From the NCBI GenBank assembly GCA_017396555.1, contig JAFQLS010000041.1, positions 1-34,882 on the forward strand: a stretch of DNA of 34,882 nt, in the 5' to 3' direction. The number at the start of each line of letters is the position of its first letter. Positions within the stretch are counted from its first letter, which is position 1. Positions 354 through 13,333 of this stretch are shown here, piece by piece. The position numbers and the translations under genes were made by a program. The stretch is from Lachnospiraceae bacterium. Lineage in GTDB: Bacteria; Bacillota; Clostridia; Lachnospirales; Lachnospiraceae. The notes beneath the pieces are model-generated. The model searched no databases. It was not told the DNA's origin and saw only the letters and a program-made list of their open reading frames with translations.

Positions 354-788
354 TTATAGATATCCCTTGATATCTTTACAAAGTTGTTCTTCCAATTTGA
401 TAAGTTGTGTACAAATATCCTTAACCTTTGAATTGGCGGCTTCATATTTGTTAAAGTATTCATTTAGGGATTTTACCCCCATATTGCAGCCGTCCGTTAT
501 TAAATCAGCAACAGTTGCATCTGACTCATCCATACTCATTTTAAAATTGGTTTTAAGCCATGACATTCCTTTTGCCATTGCATTTGGCTCTTTCTCGTCG
601 CTATCATATTCGTTTAGAAGAACCTTGATTTCATCTTCGATTTTTGTATGTTCTTCCTTGCTTTTGCTAAGAATATTTTTAAGTTTTTCATCTTTTACCT
701 TTTCAAGAATGTCATCTATTGAAGATATAGCCATTTTAGTGCCGGCGTCGCACTCCTTAAGTAAATGAATAGTATCTTGATTTTCCAT
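354..788 (-). CDS. Ferritin-like/DUF2383-like four-helix protein of unknown function
   Basis: The start at 788 is chosen because a clear GGAGG (793-797) precedes this ATG; the frame can be read further upstream but without a ribosome binding site. The 144-residue product is entirely helical and acidic with no signal peptide. Paired carboxylates and His occur in helix 2 (EEHTKIEDEI, about residues 53-62), as in small ferritin-like bundles of the DUF2383 type. No metal-binding set can be assigned with confidence. It is divergent from the padR gene and shares its intergenic region, so the PadR palindromes could also affect it. A possible -10 (TATACT, complement of 813-818) lies upstream. The function is unknown; stress or storage roles are inference only. 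Confidence 0.65.
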   Translation of the reverse strand: MENQDTIHLLKECDAGTKMAISSIDDILEKVKDEKLKNILSKSKEEHTKIEDEIKVLLNEYDSDEKEPNAMAKGMSWLKTNFKMSMDESDATVADLITDGCNMGVKSLNEYFNKYEAANSKVKDICTQLIKLEEQLCKDIKGYL

Positions 789-2558: not shown

Positions 2559-2864
2559 ATGGAAGAAAATACAACGATATATGAGAAAAAACAGGTTATA
2601 TTTAGTGATTCATTAGGAGTGTGTGTAGTGGCGGAGGTAACAAAGTTGTCATCAGGCAAAACAGAACCCGTATTATACTACAAATTGAACTCTTTATATG
2701 AAAAAGGAAAAACTGCATATGTACCGGCAGTAGGTCATAAGGTTAAATTAAGAGAATTAATTACAGTGGAAGAAGCTGAGAAATTGAAGGAAAAAGTCAC
2801 AGAAGATACAGAACCAATGATTTTACATGAGATAAATTATGTGCTGGAAAAAAATAAAAAGTAA
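2559..2864 (+). CDS. Small CarD/CdnL-like protein (probable RNA polymerase-interacting domain)
   Basis: The start at 2559 is preferred; the frame can be opened at 2493, but that places the start inside the predicted -35 box. The 101-residue product begins with the strand pattern KKQVIFSDSLGVCVVAEV, followed by VLYYKL, a lysine-rich turn, TAYVPAVG and KLRELITVEEAEKL. This resembles the RID fold of CarD/CdnL and TRCF (conserved hydrophobic strands, a tyrosine-rich YYxL strand, then the VP turn and RxLIxxEEA helix). CarD proteins bind the RNA polymerase beta subunit and affect initiation. The protein lacks the longer C-terminal DNA-binding domain, so it would be a RID-only version. The assignment is by pattern only. 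Confidence 0.5.
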   Translation: MEENTTIYEKKQVIFSDSLGVCVVAEVTKLSSGKTEPVLYYKLNSLYEKGKTAYVPAVGHKVKLRELITVEEAEKLKEKVTEDTEPMILHEINYVLEKNKK

Positions 2865-2967: not shown

Positions 2968-4446
2968 ATGCGAGATTTTTCACAGCGTTTAAAAAAAGCT
3001 ATGGAAGATAGTGGTATGAAACAGGTAGATTTGATTCGTATTGCTGAGGAACAGGGGATAAAGCTCGGGAAGAGTCATATTAGCCAGTATGTTAGCGGTA
3101 AAACAGTTCCACGAACAGACATGATTCATTTTCTTGCAGGAGCATTGTCAGTAGATGAAGCATGGCTTATGGGAAAACAGAAGAATATACCGAACACACA
3201 CGATATTGATATTTCAGGAGGAAAGGCTATGCGCGAATTTAAAAAATCGTTAAAATTAGATAATGTATTATATGATGTTAGAGGACCAGTTGTTGAAGAA
3301 GCATCAAGAATGGAACAGTCAGGAATGCAGGTTCTTAAGTTAAATATTGGTAACCCTGCTCCATTTGGATTCCGTGCACCTGATGAAGTTATATGTGATA
3401 TGAGAAGTCAGCTTATAGAATGTGAGGGCTATTCGGATTCTAAAGGCTTGTTTTCGGCGAGAAAGGCTATAATGCAGTATGCACAGTTAAAAGGTATACC
3501 AAGTGTAACTATTGATGACATTTATATTGGAAATGGTGTTAGTGAACTGATTAATCTTAGTATGTCGGCACTTCTCGATGATGGTGATGAGGTGTTAGTG
3601 CCATCACCTGATTATCCGTTATGGACAGCCTGCGTAACTCTTGCAGGAGGAAAAGCGGTTCATTATGTATGTGATGAACAGTCAGAGTGGTATCCTGATA
3701 TGGCTGATATTAGAAAAAAAGTAAATTCAAGAACTAAGGCAATTGTATTGATTAACCCTAATAATCCTACGGGAGCATTGTATCCGAGAGAGGTGTTACA
3801 AGAAATTGTAAATATTGCAAGAGAACATCAGTTGATTATTTTTTCGGATGAAATATATGACAGGCTTGTTATGGATGGTGAGGAACATATTTCCATTGCT
3901 TCTATGGCGCCCGATGTATTCTGTGTTACATATAGCGGATTGTCAAAATCACATATGGTTGCAGGCTTTAGAGTTGGCTGGATGATTTTAAGTGGAAATA
4001 AAAGGGGTGCCTACGATTATATACAGGGGTTAAATATGCTCTCTAATATGCGTCTTTGTTCTAACGTACCTGCACAGTCAATTGTACAGACTTCATTAGG
4101 AGGATATCAGAGTGTACAGAATTATATTGTTCCGGGTGGAAGAATATATGAGCAGAGAGAATTTATTTATAAGGCGTTAAATGATATACCGGGAATTAGT
4201 GCTGTAAAGCCTAAAGCAGCATTTTACATTTTCCCTAAAATAGATATTAAAAAGTTCAATATAACAAATGATGAGAAATTTGCACTTGATTTATTAAGGG
4301 AGAAAAAGATACTTCTTATACATGGTGGAGGATTCAACTGGAAACAGCCTGACCATTTCAGAGTAGTATATTTGCCTAGGGTTGAAGTGTTAGAAGATGC
4401 GGCAGCAAAGCTGGCAGACTTCTTTAGTTATTACAAGCAAATGTAA
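2968..4446 (+). CDS. XRE-type HTH fused to class I/II PLP aminotransferase (AlaA-like)
   Basis: Residues 1-75 form a Cro/C1 HTH (FSQRLKKAMEDSGMKQVDL... SHISQYVSGKTVP). Residues 88-492 are a complete fold-type I aminotransferase of the alanine/aspartate group: GNGVSE (189-193), NPNNPTG (263-269), DEIYD (294-298), the SGLSK segment with Schiff-base Lys327, Arg335 for PLP phosphate, and Arg465 for the substrate carboxylate. The enzyme part most resembles AlaA (glutamate-pyruvate transaminase). The fusion is analogous to MocR regulators, but those use a GntR winged helix. An ATG at 3229 (Met88), exactly at the domain border, has an ideal AGGAGG (3216-3221), so a free 405-residue enzyme may also be made. 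It is probably the first gene of an operon with the TIR, cyclase and DHHA1 genes. Confidence 0.9.
   Translation: MRDFSQRLKKAMEDSGMKQVDLIRIAEEQGIKLGKSHISQYVSGKTVPRTDMIHFLAGALSVDEAWLMGKQKNIPNTHDIDISGGKAMREFKKSLKLDNVLYDVRGPVVEEASRMEQSGMQVLKLNIGNPAPFGFRAPDEVICDMRSQLIECEGYSDSKGLFSARKAIMQYAQLKGIPSVTIDDIYIGNGVSELINLSMSALLDDGDEVLVPSPDYPLWTACVTLAGGKAVHYVCDEQSEWYPDMADIRKKVNSRTKAIVLINPNNPTGALYPREVLQEIVNIAREHQLIIFSDEIYDRLVMDGEEHISIASMAPDVFCVTYSGLSKSHMVAGFRVGWMILSGNKRGAYDYIQGLNMLSNMRLCSNVPAQSIVQTSLGGYQSVQNYIVPGGRIYEQREFIYKALNDIPGISAVKPKAAFYIFPKIDIKKFNITNDEKFALDLLREKKILLIHGGGFNWKQPDHFRVVYLPRVEVLEDAAAKLADFFSYYKQM
3216..3231 (+). promoter_or_regulatory. Internal ribosome binding site and start at the HTH/aminotransferase boundary
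   Basis: AGGAGG (3216-3221) lies 7 bases before the in-frame ATG at 3229, which is the natural first residue of the aminotransferase domain. It is stronger than most ribosome binding sites in the window. Either two products are made from one gene, or the fusion is recent and the old start signal was kept. Confidence 0.6.
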
Positions 4447-4473
4447 AATAATTTGCAATCAGGAGGAAACAAT

Positions 4474-5226
4474 ATGGAACAAAGTACTGTTTTTGTTAGC
4501 TATAGTTCAAAGAATATAGACGTTGCCAATTATATAGTTAGTAGACTGCAAAAATTAAATATTTCATATTGGAAAGCTCCAGAAATGATACCGGCAGGTT
4601 CAAGCTATGCGAAAGAGATTCCAAAAGCAATCCAAAATTGTCAGATAGTCTTACTTGTATTGTCTAAGGCTTCACAGGAATCTATCTGGGTTGAGAAGGA
4701 GATAGACAGTGCTATTTGTAACAGGAAGGTAATTATTCCTTTCCAAATAGAGGAAATGGAGCTTAATGATACCTTTAAGTTTTATCTTAATAATGTACAG
4801 ACAGTTATGTATTATAATGATAAAGAAGAAGCATTTAAGATGTTGAGAGCAAAGCTTGCACCTATTGCAGCAGAGGAAGAGATCAGAAAAGACATAGAGC
4901 CGCAGGCGCAGATATTTGAAGTCAATAAAGGTACGGGTTCGAGAAGAAAAAGTGCAGATGTTAATGCACTTCGTATGAATAGGATTCCTGTTGTGTGCAG
5001 GTTTTGCGGATGCAAGGAATTGGAACATACATCGCTTGGTACTTATAAATGTATTCGTTGTAATGGGGAAAACTATGATGATTACCAGACTATAAGAAAA
5101 TACATAGAGCAAAAAGGTCGGGCTTCTTATCTTGAGATAGAAAGAGAAACGGGAATTCCAAGAAGAATAATAGATAATTGTCTTAAAGAAGGCTATTTAT
5201 TTGAAGGTAAAAAGAGCAATTTTTAG
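4474..5226 (+). CDS. TIR-domain protein with zinc ribbon and winged helix
   Basis: The start at 4474 follows AGGAGG (4461-4466) by 7 bases. Residues 5-115 are a bacterial TIR domain: FVSYSS (7-12), the IPAG loop (39-42), IVLLVLS strand (58-64) and SxWxxxE with Trp72 and the putative catalytic Glu76, the position needed for NAD-cleaving TIRs. Residues 175-196 hold a CxxC...CxxC zinc ribbon (C175, C178, C193, C196). Residues 205-243 look like a winged helix (SYLEIERETGIPRRIIDNCL). No transmembrane or cyclic-nucleotide-binding domain is visible. It lies 27 bp after the aminotransferase and 17 bp before a class III cyclase. TIR proteins act as NADases or signalling scaffolds; the ribbon and HTH suggest nucleic-acid contact. 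The role is unknown. Confidence 0.85.
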   Translation: MEQSTVFVSYSSKNIDVANYIVSRLQKLNISYWKAPEMIPAGSSYAKEIPKAIQNCQIVLLVLSKASQESIWVEKEIDSAICNRKVIIPFQIEEMELNDTFKFYLNNVQTVMYYNDKEEAFKMLRAKLAPIAAEEEIRKDIEPQAQIFEVNKGTGSRRKSADVNALRMNRIPVVCRFCGCKELEHTSLGTYKCIRCNGENYDDYQTIRKYIEQKGRASYLEIERETGIPRRIIDNCLKEGYLFEGKKSNF

Positions 5227-5243
5227 TATATAGGAATTTGGGT

Positions 5244-6743
5244 ATGGAGAAGATAATTTGGACAATTGGAGATAAACGTGATGAAATGATAGAAGCGCAA
5301 CGTAGGATTAATTCTATTGGCAGTATGCGTGCGCTTTGTATGCTATCAATAGAAGCACTTGAAAAAGCTATTATAACCATACAGGAAAATCTTGCGTCCA
5401 GAATTAGTTTTCCGTCACTTATAATAATTGATTACGAAATGGCAGTTAAAGATAATTGTAACTTATTATCTATTATTAAAAATCAGAAATATGTAGCAGG
5501 TGTTCCACTATTTATTATGATGGATAAGAGGACGAGGGAACTGGATGAAGAGTGTTACTCTCTGGGGGCTATGGTAGTGCTTACCAAACCATTTTCGAAA
5601 TCGGGAATACTCAGAATCGAAAGAATAGCATGGCAGTATGAGGTTACAAAAAACTATGAGAAAACTCTGCAGAAGCAGGCTATGGATTTGCAGGCAGCAA
5701 GAGAAATTATGAGACTTAATAAGCAGCTTGAAGCAAGGAACGAATTGTTATATAAGGTGTTTGGACGTTATTTCTCGGATAGTGTGGTAGAAGTTATTTT
5801 AGAGCATCCGGAGGGTGTCTCGATTGGTGGAAAAAAGGCAGATATGACTGTTATGATGGTTGATTTGAGAGGTTTCACTTCGTTGTCAACCCAATTAGAG
5901 CCGGAAGTTGTTACAACTGTTCTTAATGTGTTTTTCGACAGAATGATTGAAATTATAAGAAAATATGGGGGGACAGTTATAGAACTGTTAGGGGATTGTA
6001 TTTTAGCAGTGTTTGGTGCACCTTTGCCAAATGAGGAGCATACGGCGAATGCTATTGCAACAGCTATAGAAATGCAGAATGCAATGAGTGATATAAATAT
6101 ATATTGCGAGGAATATGGATATCCACACTTAGAGATAGGAGTGGGACTTCATAGAGGTGAGGCGTTTATTGGAAATGTAGGTTCTGAGCGAATGATGAGA
6201 TATAATGTTGTGGGCAGCGTGGTAAATGAATGTTCGCGAATTGAAGGCTTAAGTGTTGGAGGTCAGATTTTGATTTCGGAGGATTCGCTTGAAAATATTT
6301 CTGTTCCGATTACAATAAATAACAAAATAAAAGTAAATGCTAAAGGATTACTCCGAGCAATAAGTATATGCGATGTAACCGGTATAGGTGGAAAATATAA
6401 CGTTTGCATTGAGAATATAGAAAATAATAATGGTACTGATATAACGGACAAAGTGAAAATTATGTTATATCCGGTTGAAAATAAAGTTGTAGAAGATGAA
6501 GCTATTGTAGCCGAACTTAGGAGAATATCGGAAAAAAGGGCGATTGTAGAACTTAAGGATGAAGGGTTGCCGATTTTTACAGATGTACAGGTAGAGGCTG
6601 TAATGGAGGACGGTAGAGTTATTTTTGATGATATATATGCTAAAATAATTGATAAGAAAGATAATAATGTAACACTACATTTTACACATATAAATCATAG
6701 CTTTAAGGTGTACGCAGAAAAGGTTATTAATAACAGAGGGTGA
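5244..6743 (+). CDS. REC-like/class III nucleotide cyclase response protein
   Basis: The start is the ATG at 5244; a TTG at 5238 is an alternative. Residues 1-130 form a receiver-like domain with Asp63 at the phosphoacceptor position and the TKPF signature (Lys115). A coiled linker (135-168) leads to a class III cyclase domain (195-335) with both metal-binding aspartates (Asp207 in MMVDLRGF, Asp251 in LLGDC) and the transition-state pair Asn328 and Arg332. The base-recognition positions are Glu247 (Lys in adenylyl cyclases, Glu in guanylyl cyclases) and Asn321 (usually Asp/Thr for ATP, Cys for GTP). The enzyme therefore looks catalytically complete but with non-adenylyl specificity. Residues 400-499 form a beta-rich tail, perhaps PilZ-like. 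No partner kinase is adjacent. The next gene overlaps its stop. Confidence 0.88.
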   Translation: MEKIIWTIGDKRDEMIEAQRRINSIGSMRALCMLSIEALEKAIITIQENLASRISFPSLIIIDYEMAVKDNCNLLSIIKNQKYVAGVPLFIMMDKRTRELDEECYSLGAMVVLTKPFSKSGILRIERIAWQYEVTKNYEKTLQKQAMDLQAAREIMRLNKQLEARNELLYKVFGRYFSDSVVEVILEHPEGVSIGGKKADMTVMMVDLRGFTSLSTQLEPEVVTTVLNVFFDRMIEIIRKYGGTVIELLGDCILAVFGAPLPNEEHTANAIATAIEMQNAMSDINIYCEEYGYPHLEIGVGLHRGEAFIGNVGSERMMRYNVVGSVVNECSRIEGLSVGGQILISEDSLENISVPITINNKIKVNAKGLLRAISICDVTGIGGKYNVCIENIENNNGTDITDKVKIMLYPVENKVVEDEAIVAELRRISEKRAIVELKDEGLPIFTDVQVEAVMEDGRVIFDDIYAKIIDKKDNNVTLHFTHINHSFKVYAEKVINNRG

Positions 6744-6748
6744 TAAAA

Positions 6749-7768
6749 GTGGAAAATAAATTGTATGGTTTTATTAAAGAAAGGAATATAGAATTACCTG
6801 GTATAATCAGCACATATAAATATGTAAGGGAATCCTTTGCTATAGTTGAAGTTACAGAGGATGTATTCCATAAATTGTCCTCGCTAATGATGGATGTCAA
6901 AATGCAAAGAGAAGATGTGCTCGAATATCGAAATTTTATGAAAGAATTAAAATGTAATTTTTTGCTTCTTATTTGGCATGAGCATGAAGAAGAAAGATTA
7001 TATTTTATGAGTGAATCTAAGAGAGTGAGAGCACTAGAGTTTATTGATTATCTTATGCCGGAATTTGGACTTGTAAGAGGGAATGAAAAGGCAGCAGGAG
7101 GTAGAATTTCGTCAGCAATATTACGGGTAAAGATGTCTGAAAATGATATTGAAACAACTATGGAATATTTTTTGAAGATGTCTAATTCTTATTTTGAAGA
7201 TTGTGAGTTGATTATTGCAGCAGATTATGGAATTCGTATGGAAGAGTCGATTAAAAAAATGGAGAGATATCATAAGAAAAAGATTCCTTGGGCATTTGTA
7301 AAGAGTACAGACATTGTAGCACAAGGAGAGGTGCTTCGTATCAAGTCTTTGGAAAATGAATCAGGCCTTCAATTAACAGCCGACAAAGATGTATATATAA
7401 TGATAGGTGCAAGAGGCGAAGTCTATGATATAGAAAGAAATAAGTTTGAAAAGACATATGATGAAACAGATGGCAAATTAGATATATTTGAACAAATGCT
7501 TGATTTTTTGCCTGAGGTTGAGAGAGAATCTGATGGTAAATTTATAAGTCTGGACGAGATAGCACACTTATGTTACCCAAAGCTGGGAACGGGTATTTAT
7601 GCAAAAGAACTGGAGAACAGAACAAAGGTATTTTCGGTAATACGGGAACAGGAATATTTTTTGGGAAGACCGGGTGATTATCTTGCTGTAAGGGCAGACG
7701 ATTTGTGTGATGTGTATATAATTCAGGGCGAAATTTTCAGACAAACATATGAACCTATGGAGAAATAA
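6749..7768 (+). CDS. DHHA1-PGDYG protein without the DHH catalytic domain
   Basis: The preceding AGAGGGTGAT overlaps the cyclase stop and is best placed for the GTG at 6749; a GTG at 6740 is the alternative. Residues 65-150 align by eye with the DHHA1 part of the DHH protein encoded at 11834: both have a hydrophobic strand, YL..G, GN..KA.GG.I and YF...N.Y.E. The GGGH nucleotide-binding histidine is replaced (RGNEKAAGG, 110-118) and no DHH motifs exist. Residues 181-238 and 290-339 are two further modules shared with that protein (KSTDI...GE..R..SLE...YIM.G..GE.Y.I.R.KF; then RPGDYL...VYII...F..TY, a PGDYG-like domain). It is translationally coupled to the cyclase. It may be a non-catalytic binding or regulatory paralog. 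Confidence 0.7.
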   Translation: MENKLYGFIKERNIELPGIISTYKYVRESFAIVEVTEDVFHKLSSLMMDVKMQREDVLEYRNFMKELKCNFLLLIWHEHEEERLYFMSESKRVRALEFIDYLMPEFGLVRGNEKAAGGRISSAILRVKMSENDIETTMEYFLKMSNSYFEDCELIIAADYGIRMEESIKKMERYHKKKIPWAFVKSTDIVAQGEVLRIKSLENESGLQLTADKDVYIMIGARGEVYDIERNKFEKTYDETDGKLDIFEQMLDFLPEVERESDGKFISLDEIAHLCYPKLGTGIYAKELENRTKVFSVIREQEYFLGRPGDYLAVRADDLCDVYIIQGEIFRQTYEPMEK

Positions 7769-7771
7769 AAG

Positions 7772-7797
7772 AGAACCTTGGCATTTGCCAAGGTTCT
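7772..7797. terminator. Strong bidirectional hairpin between convergent operons
   Basis: A perfect inverted repeat (7772-7783 with 7786-7797, effective loop 4 nt) sits between the DHHA1 gene stop and purC. On the minus side it is followed by CTTTTATTTCT, a good U-tract. It ends the TIR/cyclase operon and the purC transcript. Confidence 0.85.
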
Positions 7798-11833: not shown

Positions 11834-13333
11834 ATGAAACTTAGTACATTAGAAAATTATAATGATATAGTTATTCAGATGCATGATAATCCGGATGCAG
11901 ATGCTATAGGCTCGGGGTATGCGATTTATAGATATTTACAGTCAAAAGGAAAAAGTCCTCGTCTTGTGTATAGCGGTGATTATATTATAACCAAAAGTAA
12001 TATTAAGATTTTAATAAAAGAACTTAAACTTCCGGTTGAATATATAACGTCGCTTGATAATCCGGAGCTATTAATAACCGTTGACTGCCAGTACGGTGAA
12101 GGCAATGTCAAATATTTTGAAGCACAAAATGTGGCGGTTATAGATCATCATAATACAGGAAAACTATCTGATGATATGGCAGAAATACGCAGTCATTTGG
12201 TTAGTTGTTCTACAATCTGCTTTGATATGTTGAGAAAAGAAGGTTACGATCTTAAGTCAGATGTGGCATTATCCACAGCTTTATATTATGGCTTATACAT
12301 GGATAGTAACGGCTTCGGAGAACTTAGACATTCACTGGAAAGAGATATGATAGACGAACTTATTATAGATAAGGGACTTATCAAGAAAATGGTACATTCA
12401 AACTTTACAATACAGGAACTCGAAACAGCCGGTATTGCATTAATCAGATATAGCTTCGATGAAAATAGAGGGGTGTCCATTATTAAATCAAAACCATGTG
12501 ATCCCAATATATTGGGGCTTATTGGAGATTTAGTATTGCAGGTAGATAGTATTAACGTATGTGTTATTTATAATGAATGTAACGGAGGATATAAATTATC
12601 TGTACGCAGCTGTGTGACTGATGTTGCAGCAAATGATGTTGCTAAATATCTTACGGAAGGTATAGGAAACGGAGGAGGACATAATGATAAAGCGGGAGGA
12701 TATATAAGTAAGAAGAATTACGAAAATAAATATGGCGATATGGGAATTGAGTTGTATTTCTTTGAAAGAGTAAATGCTTATTATGAGAGTTATGATACTA
12801 TATATGCAAAAGATGGAATTCATGATAATACAGATTTCGAATTATATACGAAGTTACCTTATTCATACGGATACATAAAGAGTACGGATATATTTGAAAA
12901 AGGTGAAGAATTCAGAATGAGGTCTTTAGAAGGTGTAGACGTATATGTTGTAGCAGGTGAAGATTTATACATAATGCTCGGATACTATGGAGAAGCTTAT
13001 CCTATTAAGAGAGATAAATTTTTACAAAAATATAGAGAAACTAACAATGCTTATACTAAAGAATTTGAATATAATCCATCGGTTAGAAGTATGAAAACTG
13101 ATGAAACAAATGAATTGATTCCTTACGCAAAGGAATGTATATGCTGTGATGGAGCAAAAATTTTAGCTAAACCTATTGAAAAGACTACGAAGGTATTTAC
13201 TAAATGGGAGCATGACAGATATATTCAGGGTGAGCCGGGTGATATGTTATGTAAATCAGTGGATGATGATTATGATATATATCTGATAAAGTGGGAAGTG
13301 TTCGAAGTTACATATAAAAAAGAGGCTGAATAG
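11834..13333 (+). CDS. DHH-DHHA1 phosphoesterase with C-terminal PGDYG-type modules
   Basis: AAGGTGA precedes the ATG. Residues 10-165 carry all DHH motifs: HDNPDADAIGS (His17, Asp21, Asp23), TVDCQ (Asp84), VIDHH (Asp104-His106) and YMDSNGF (Asp157). DHHA1 spans about 205-300 with NGGGHNDKAGG (His283). This is the NrnA/Pde architecture, so the enzyme should hydrolyse short RNAs, pAp or linear/cyclic dinucleotides with Mn2+. Beyond it are two extra modules absent from NrnA: residues 347-402 (KSTDIFEKGE...YIMLGYYGEAYPIKRDKF) and 450-499 (GEPGDML...DIYLIKWEVFEVTY). The same modules occur in the DHHA1 protein at 6749-7768. It is the first gene of a plus-strand operon with an alarmone-hydrolase-like protein. 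Confidence 0.9.
   Translation: MKLSTLENYNDIVIQMHDNPDADAIGSGYAIYRYLQSKGKSPRLVYSGDYIITKSNIKILIKELKLPVEYITSLDNPELLITVDCQYGEGNVKYFEAQNVAVIDHHNTGKLSDDMAEIRSHLVSCSTICFDMLRKEGYDLKSDVALSTALYYGLYMDSNGFGELRHSLERDMIDELIIDKGLIKKMVHSNFTIQELETAGIALIRYSFDENRGVSIIKSKPCDPNILGLIGDLVLQVDSINVCVIYNECNGGYKLSVRSCVTDVAANDVAKYLTEGIGNGGGHNDKAGGYISKKNYENKYGDMGIELYFFERVNAYYESYDTIYAKDGIHDNTDFELYTKLPYSYGYIKSTDIFEKGEEFRMRSLEGVDVYVVAGEDLYIMLGYYGEAYPIKRDKFLQKYRETNNAYTKEFEYNPSVRSMKTDETNELIPYAKECICCDGAKILAKPIEKTTKVFTKWEHDRYIQGEPGDMLCKSVDDDYDIYLIKWEVFEVTYKKEAE

Follow-up and report, generated by a model that had tools for sequence, protein, structure and literature searches.

Three adjacent genes in the DNA of a Lachnospiraceae bacterium, which encode a TIR protein, a class III nucleotide cyclase and a stand-alone DHHA1-like domain with a tail (the DHHA1-tail protein), form a real unit, found rarely, in at least eight genera of a single family. 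They lie on a stretch of 34,882 nucleotides that we call the window (assembly GCA_017396555.1, contig JAFQLS010000041.1, positions 1 to 34,882 of the forward strand). We find that the unit is best explained as the core of a nucleotide-signalling cassette that is chromosomal and occurs sporadically in this family, an explanation that, taken as a whole, we hold with slightly less than even confidence. An earlier annotation made from the sequence alone (the sequence-only reading) had proposed one operon of four genes that begins with a helix-turn-helix (HTH) aminotransferase. The four co-directional open reading frames (ORFs; Table 1) and their tight spacing, with intergenic distances of 27, 17 and -4 bp, were borne out, and so was the unit of the last three genes, but not the membership of the HTH-aminotransferase.

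The TIR gene, the cyclase gene and the DHHA1-type gene occur in the same order in nine loci, and we thus consider them a real unit. The nine loci come from eight genera of the family and from locus L036, with several different flanks: one is the window, seven are in further genomes from a sample of 397 of the family, and L036 was found by the cyclase search (L035 is the same locus as that of genome G333). By reading the loci, the complete triad was found in eight of the 397 family genomes (G000, G014, G176, G187, G199, G211, G285 and G333); this count is a lower bound, as the search kept TIR matches up to E 1e-40, and among the matches listed no more than five first-look candidates received a score. 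The intergenic distances in the nine loci, with start codons chosen by hand, range from -29 to 83 bp, and in two of them (L036 and L089) the cyclase and the DHHA1-tail protein are a single ORF. Furthermore, the identity matrices of these two proteins are correlated (0.91; 0 of 5000 permutations). The gene order is conserved beyond close relatives, across eight genera, and the triad, with at least eight of 397 genomes, is not the universal core locus that the sequence-only reading had considered. Alignments A1-A3 comprise seven of the nine loci, to which L105 and L107 were added for the residue check in nine.

The TIR profile matched 12 of the 397 family genomes at E<=1e-40 and 3 of 391 genomes of the class, with the window's own genome among the three. 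The TIR gene is present in G233, G236 and G287, with no cassette in the stretch read; no cassette was found within the 12 kb read around the class match in G646; and in G304 the zinc-ribbon/HTH part occurs without a TIR domain, next to a GAF-GGDEF gene. In a search of 200 family genomes, 35 matched the DHHA1-tail protein, among them five with short orthologues or, in G014, the cyclase fusion. The other 30 have longer ORFs, of about 500-580 aa; those checked match the full-length DHH protein, with the exception of L015, which reaches the end of its contig. In the phylum sample, the short form was found at E<=1e-30 in 1 of 279 genomes, that of the window, and the ORFs in the three further genomes with a match are 495-516 aa long. 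The genus-level sample consists of the window's own genome alone.

The predicted TIR domain of the first protein was confirmed (TIR_2, 73.1 bits compared to a cut-off of 28; matches in seven of seven orthologues). It covers residues 6-124 (DNA 4489-4845) and is followed by a linker, a zinc ribbon at about residues 172-200 and an HTH-like segment at about 203-242; this tail had been overlooked. A Glu in TIR domains is catalytic. Glu76 is of this type, aligns to the Glu of the Cat1 TIR and is present in nine of nine cassettes; together with the flanking WVEKEI stretch and the loop it is invariant in the seven aligned orthologues. The tail gives weak hits with single profiles, and the four Cys of its first ribbon are invariant in the seven orthologues. 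Most orthologues have a second zinc ribbon, which is missing from the proteins of the window and of L107. As the sequence-only reading had stated, a cyclic-nucleotide-binding (CNB) domain is not visible: PF00027 does not match the window protein at E<=1 in the Pfam scan, nor is it among the families listed for the seven orthologues (E<=0.1). A flagellar role via the tail, hinted at by TIGR03826 (E 0.00084), was not supported, as tail loci occur in mixed contexts. We read 26 of them by eye (L153-L178): L155 is the cassette of G014, and the others are in mixed contexts, nine beside a purD-like gene.

The second protein is a class III cyclase, as had been proposed (Guanylate_cyc, 88.3 bits; cut-off 21.9). 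Its structural model has a predicted local distance difference test score (pLDDT) of 88.5 and contains a receiver-like domain (residues 3-118), a long helix (119-173), the core (about 195-385) and a six-stranded C-terminal barrel plus helix (405-496); the barrel had gone unnoticed before. Its top two PDB matches both contain Cya2 (6fht, 2.9e-73; 2w01, 3.8e-65), and in Foldseek 2w01 is 40-41% identical to the core. Class III cyclases use two metal-binding Asp and an Asn/Arg transition-state pair. Both the Asp pair (D207 and D251) and the N328/R332 pair are complete in nine of nine cassettes. E247, the equivalent of Cya2 E488, is kept in nine of nine as well, and the position is Glu in 33 of 40 aligned sequences (alignment A6, which combines the window with 39 of the 51 cyclase-search loci and leaves out L062, L065, L069, L070, L071, L073, L076, L080-L083 and L085). 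Thus, the residue set of a class III guanylate cyclase (two Asp, Asn/Arg and the base-specifying Glu) is found in all nine. According to PMC5995499, the exchange E488K turns Cya2 from a guanylate into an adenylate cyclase; the chimera 6fht has Lys at this position in the alignment of the PDB search. Because of the likeness to Cya2 and the presence of E247 in nine of nine cassettes, cyclic GMP (cGMP) is the likely product predicted from these residues.

The domains on either side of the core are less clear. The REC domain that had been proposed at the N-terminus scores 22.3 bits, below the Pfam cut-off of 30.2, although the model contains a folded domain there. Receiver domains are expected to carry an acid pair at strand 1. 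By these features the cyclase does not classify as a response regulator: D63 is present in nine of nine cassettes, but the acid pair was not seen in the alignment, and the receiver-like domain is degenerate. For the C-terminal barrel, PilZ is the sole recurring profile.

The third protein, encoded by the fourth ORF of the window, has no family above the cut-off in the Pfam scan. The DHHA1 identity that had been suggested for it found no Pfam hit and was instead recovered by hhalign to DHH-DHHA1 proteins (Table 1), whereas the suggested PGDYG domain scores far below its cut-off (13.2 bits compared to a cut-off of 27, E 0.11; one of seven orthologues matches at E<=0.1). Against 15 full-length DHH proteins, its columns 30-328 align to columns 211-501, which are the DHHA1 and tail regions only; the DHH catalytic domain is missing (no DHH match at E<=1). 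The GGGH and SVRSC motifs are invariant in the 15 full-length proteins. Among the seven DHHA1-tail rows, GGGH is replaced in all and the Arg of SVRSC in six, the exception being L088. With no DHH part and GGGH lost, the protein is unlikely to be a phosphoesterase, and given the two fusions to the cyclase, the simplest reading is that it is a structural or regulatory partner of this enzyme. A full-length paralogue elsewhere in the window (11834-13333), also overlooked before, shows the family of origin of the gene (34% identity over 243 columns, E 2e-31). An AlphaFold model computed from three sequences was unusable (pLDDT 51.8), and the profile has no PDB match. In phage records we found two weak matches (26-30% identity, 55-75% coverage), both unannotated.

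Upstream of the TIR gene, the cassettes differ. A GAF-GGDEF gene lies directly upstream in seven of the nine loci; the other two have a hybrid histidine kinase (L087, by eye) and, in the window, the HTH-aminotransferase. An endonuclease-IV-like TIM barrel (AP_endonuc_2) precedes the GGDEF gene in five of the eight loci that can be judged, as L089 ends at its GGDEF gene. The copy in the window is thus a reduced one that has neither the GAF-GGDEF nor the TIM gene. In L106 (8396-10028), a GAF-GGDEF gene with degenerate signature lies beside a TIR-less zinc-ribbon/HTH protein, downstream of a polysaccharide-type cluster (by eye).

The TIM barrel also occurs with class III cyclases apart from the TIR gene. 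Of the 51 cyclase loci, two have the TIM barrel in one ORF with the cyclase, eight have its gene next to that of the cyclase and two have it within a TIR cassette; nine of the ten fused or adjacent loci are labelled clostridial and one (L053) Chloroflexi. In L052 (6738-8930) and L060 (2334-4526), a TIM barrel of the endonuclease-IV-like type and a guanylate-type class III cyclase are single ORFs; the TIM profile included the TIM parts of these two, which thus match by construction. Independently, Pfam detects AP_endonuc_2 in two of the 40 cyclases (members not named). At E<=1e-30, 37 of 299 genomes of the bacterial family have a match to this TIM family, and the best 20 loci from these genomes comprise three TIR cassettes and 17 non-cassette loci. 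In nine of the 17, the window's own genome included, a class III cyclase adjoins the TIM gene, all nine with a Lys motif. All 29 TIM rows, of which six are second copies, share the nine metal ligands that we take to be those of endonuclease IV; six of these ligands fall in the stretch aligned to this enzyme. A natural guess from the sequence is that the TIM barrel is a phosphodiesterase that ends the cyclase signal.

The window's assembly has three proteins that bind cyclic nucleoside monophosphates (cNMPs) according to PF00027, all within 10 kb of contig C51. The surrounding locus (L141, G000:C51:14001-34000) contains FecR proteins, two proteins of the cNMP-DUF2225 type, a CHASE2 cyclase with an adenylate-type Lys and a TIM barrel of the cassette's family, as well as STAS- and kinase/HATPase-like genes (by eye), a cNMP-SpoIIE phosphatase and a GGDEF protein.

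We propose the following mechanism for the cassette. An input would reach the cyclase via the receiver-like domain, via the PilZ-like barrel at the C-terminus or via the bound DHHA1-tail protein, and the cyclase would then make cGMP. The TIR protein would be the output, predicted from its Glu to cleave or modify NAD+, and its zinc-ribbon/HTH tail may hold it at the target. Since no CNB domain was found in the three core proteins, gating of the TIR protein by a complex with the cyclase and the DHHA1-tail protein, or by a free-standing cNMP receptor, would be likelier than by a Pycsar-type domain. In the fuller cassettes, the GAF-GGDEF protein may be a second input, and the TIM-barrel protein may act as the phosphodiesterase that removes the signal. 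A bolder version, which we consider rather improbable, is a cGMP-TIR system new to bacteria, where a dead DHHA1 domain and cyclic di-GMP (c-di-GMP) from GAF-GGDEF would gate a guanylate cyclase that controls a TIR enzyme tethered by zinc ribbon and HTH, and where the TIM barrel would be a new family of cyclic-nucleotide phosphodiesterases acting for class III cyclases in many Clostridia.

Several observations weigh against a cGMP-signalling cassette of this kind. We found no cyclic-nucleotide receptor in the cassette proteins. At the second specificity position, the Gly of Cya2 corresponds to Asn321 in the cyclase. Both the receiver-like domain and the DHHA1 domain are degenerate and may not act as inputs. 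For the C-terminal barrel, PilZ matches weakly in seven of 38 C-termini (best E 0.00037; alignment A8, 38 of the 40 A6 sequences, L054 and L063 out), the C-terminus of the window cyclase is unmatched, no PDB match was found, and the canonical c-di-GMP motifs of PilZ were not seen by eye in the C-termini. The correlation between TIR and cyclase distances is moderate (0.52; 17 of 5000 permutations), and shared ancestry alone could explain the distance correlations among the cassette genes. Eight of the 17 non-cassette TIM loci have no class III cyclase in the stretch fetched. Lastly, the window locus is without the GAF-GGDEF and TIM genes, and in its assembly, which is 85% complete, none of 18 GGDEF matches covers the GAF part as in the cassettes.

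Of the other explanations, one that is possible but doubtful is a regulatory operon, where TIR would be a non-enzymatic module for self-assembly or interaction on a zinc-ribbon/HTH regulator and expression would be tuned to cGMP and c-di-GMP. The wide occurrence of the tail is consistent with this: relatives are found in 123 of 299 family genomes (E<=1e-6, cassettes included), and among the matches listed most are short separate ORFs of about 100-200 aa. Furthermore, in L106 the tail occurs in a TIR-less protein whose gene lies beside a polysaccharide-type cluster and a GAF-GGDEF gene, and the TIM and GAF-GGDEF families are common to the cassette and to other cNMP loci. However, the invariance of Glu76 and of the WVEKEI stretch and loop points to enzyme activity, and the HTH assignment comes from weak profile hits.

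The cassette could also serve anti-phage defence in the manner of Pycsar, where infection would trigger the cyclase, and the cyclic nucleotide would make the TIR protein deplete NAD+ so that the cell stops. A TIR gene and a class III cyclase gene in one operon are the layout of Pycsar, the catalytic-type Glu is present in all nine cassettes, presence is patchy, and the PADLOC profiles of PycC and TIR match (best 1.2e-19 and 8.4e-8); the PycC hits can be explained by general class III homology. The link to defence that the sequence-only reading had raised was not borne out. The flanks are housekeeping genes by eye (carB, asnS and galE, tsaD, rsmI), and none of the ten flank proteins of the window, to which the scan was applied, has a PADLOC hit at E<=0.001. 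The plasmid collection has no match for the TIR protein (E<=1e-10) or the DHHA1-tail protein (E<=1e-5), and an origin from mobile elements was rejected on the basis of this search and of the phage-record search with the DHHA1-tail protein. The downstream flank is common to two genera (L087 and L088). The missing CNB domain in the TIR protein and the guanylate-type Glu in the cyclase further argue against defence, as do the usual partners, since we know of no GGDEF or TIM-barrel partner in Pycsar. A defence role is thus possible but not favoured, and we give it a low probability.

That the cyclase makes another nucleotide (cAMP, cUMP or cCMP), which would make the cassette a divergent branch of Pycsar or a cAMP system, is unlikely. 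The Asn at position 321 and the fact that predictions from single residues can fail are in line with it, whereas E247 in nine of nine cassettes and the best sequence and structure matches, which contain the guanylate cyclase Cya2, speak for cGMP. The two Pycsar cyclases with structures use different residues, F60/K104/F109 and F100/R142/Q144 (PMC11224242), as far as a comparison of residue lists can show.

It is highly improbable that the genes are chance neighbours without shared function, for although presence is sporadic, nine loci in which the order is constant and the genes overlap or lie close together, two of them with a gene fusion, rule this out for the three-gene core; the explanation does hold for the HTH-aminotransferase.

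The aminotransferase domain of the latter protein was confirmed (Aminotran_1_2, 174.9 bits; cut-off 19.7), and its HTH is below the Pfam cut-off. Since none of the other eight loci has a match to the protein and 29 of 120 family genomes carry it (E<=1e-100), it is a neighbour and not a partner of the cassette; G014 has both, on separate contigs. At the window locus it is probably co-transcribed with the TIR gene 27 bp downstream. The sequence ATTGAACTT is present in four copies at 2865-2946, within about 100 bp upstream of the aminotransferase gene, and the motif WTTGAACTT occurs eight times in the window, compared to an expectation of 1.65; none of 100 shuffles contained as many. The copies are a possible operator for the HTH part of this protein. 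In L108 (4972-6489; G646:C21), which is from a different family, a relative of the HTH-aminotransferase (by eye) adjoins an unrelated TIR protein of 827 aa.

Table 1. Features at the window locus, with coordinates in the window.
Feature	Position	Strand	Evidence and remarks
TIR protein, 250 aa, core gene 1	4474..5226	+	TIR_2 3.5e-20
Class III nucleotide cyclase, soluble, 499 aa, core gene 2	5244..6743	+	Guanylate_cyc 6.2e-25
Stand-alone DHHA1-like domain + PGDYG-like tail, 342 aa, core gene 3	6740..7768	+	hhalign probability 100, E 1e-52
HTH-aminotransferase, 492 aa, neighbour	2968..4446	+	Aminotran_1_2
Small CarD-like protein	2559..2864	+	CarD_TRCF_RID 12.9 bits, cut-off 23; upstream; membership unsupported
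GC-rich hairpin	7772..7797		11 pairs, 6 GC; terminator scan, minus strand only
Full-length DHH-DHHA1 paralogue of core gene 3	11834..13333	+	DHH 54.9 bits, DHHA1 26.0 bits; outside cassette

The sequence-only reading had placed the operon between one promoter and one strong terminator. The single promoter was not established: a sigma-70-like site that agrees at 10 of 12 positions lies upstream of the aminotransferase gene (2881-2909), but such sites are abundant in this AT-rich region, with 42 observed compared to 24.7 (sd 5.9) in shuffles. For the terminator, the GC-rich hairpin is there, but the scan calls it on the minus strand only. As it sits between the cassette operon and the convergent next gene (purC, read by eye), it is possibly a two-way terminator. 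A search of the window with Rfam at gathering scores gave no match. Small proteins that are alike by eye (LLKEC-AG...) are encoded near the cassette, on opposite sides, in the window (354-785, minus strand) and in L107 (12941-13369), possibly by chance. Outside the cassettes, TIR proteins of 729-838 aa lie downstream of ion-channel- or TrkA-like membrane genes (by eye) in three genomes (L108, L109 and L180).

If the proposed cassette is real, it would give a testable role for cGMP in this bacterial family, for which no account of a cGMP role was found in the open literature. To our knowledge, all cyclic-nucleotide-gated TIR enzymes known so far are in defence systems with a dedicated receptor domain; a unit of TIR and guanylate cyclase without such a domain would, if true, be another way to couple TIR and cyclic nucleotide. 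The TIM barrel beside or fused to class III cyclases is a candidate for an unrecognised family of cyclic-nucleotide phosphodiesterases. In titles and abstract openings of the open literature, we found no cassette of TIR, guanylate cyclase and DHHA1, no paper with the word PGDYG and none that pairs 'xylose isomerase-like TIM barrel' with 'adenylate cyclase'; as coverage of subscription papers is poor, this is weak evidence for novelty.

When comparing the cassette to known systems, we find likenesses to several of them. TIR-STING and other cyclic-nucleotide-gated TIR effectors link TIR to nucleotide second messengers, as the cassette does, but no STING, SAVED or CNB domain was found in the cassette. 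Pycsar (PycC and PycTIR) shares with it a class III cyclase beside a TIR gene, here at 17 bp. The Pycsar TIR effector has an N-terminal CNB domain (PMC11224242), whereas the cassette protein has none and carries the zinc-ribbon/HTH tail instead; its N-terminus is the TIR domain itself. This difference from Pycsar had been proposed before and stands, and we thus do not assign the cassette to Pycsar. Further differences from Pycsar are, in the cyclase, the guanylate-type Glu, the receiver-like domain and the barrel at the C-terminus and, in the cassette as a whole, the additional DHHA1-tail protein and usually the GGDEF and TIM genes. Cya2 of Synechocystis (2w01) is alike in its core, at the identity given above, and has the same GTP-specifying Glu; it carries CHASE2 (PMC5995499), whereas the cassette cyclase, a soluble protein, has a receiver-like domain and shares its operon with a TIR gene. 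The DHH-DHHA1 phosphoesterases, represented by the paralogue in the window, align with core gene 3 over 290 columns in the DHHA1 region and PGDYG-like tail, and have the DHH domain and GGGH that it lacks. Lastly, the loci with FecR, cNMP-binding proteins, class III cyclase and TIM barrel (L141 and others) share the TIM family with the cassette, and L147 also the GAF-GGDEF family; they differ from it in having a cyclase with an adenylate-type Lys (with CHASE2 in L141), proteins with CNB domains and no TIR match at E<=1e-10.

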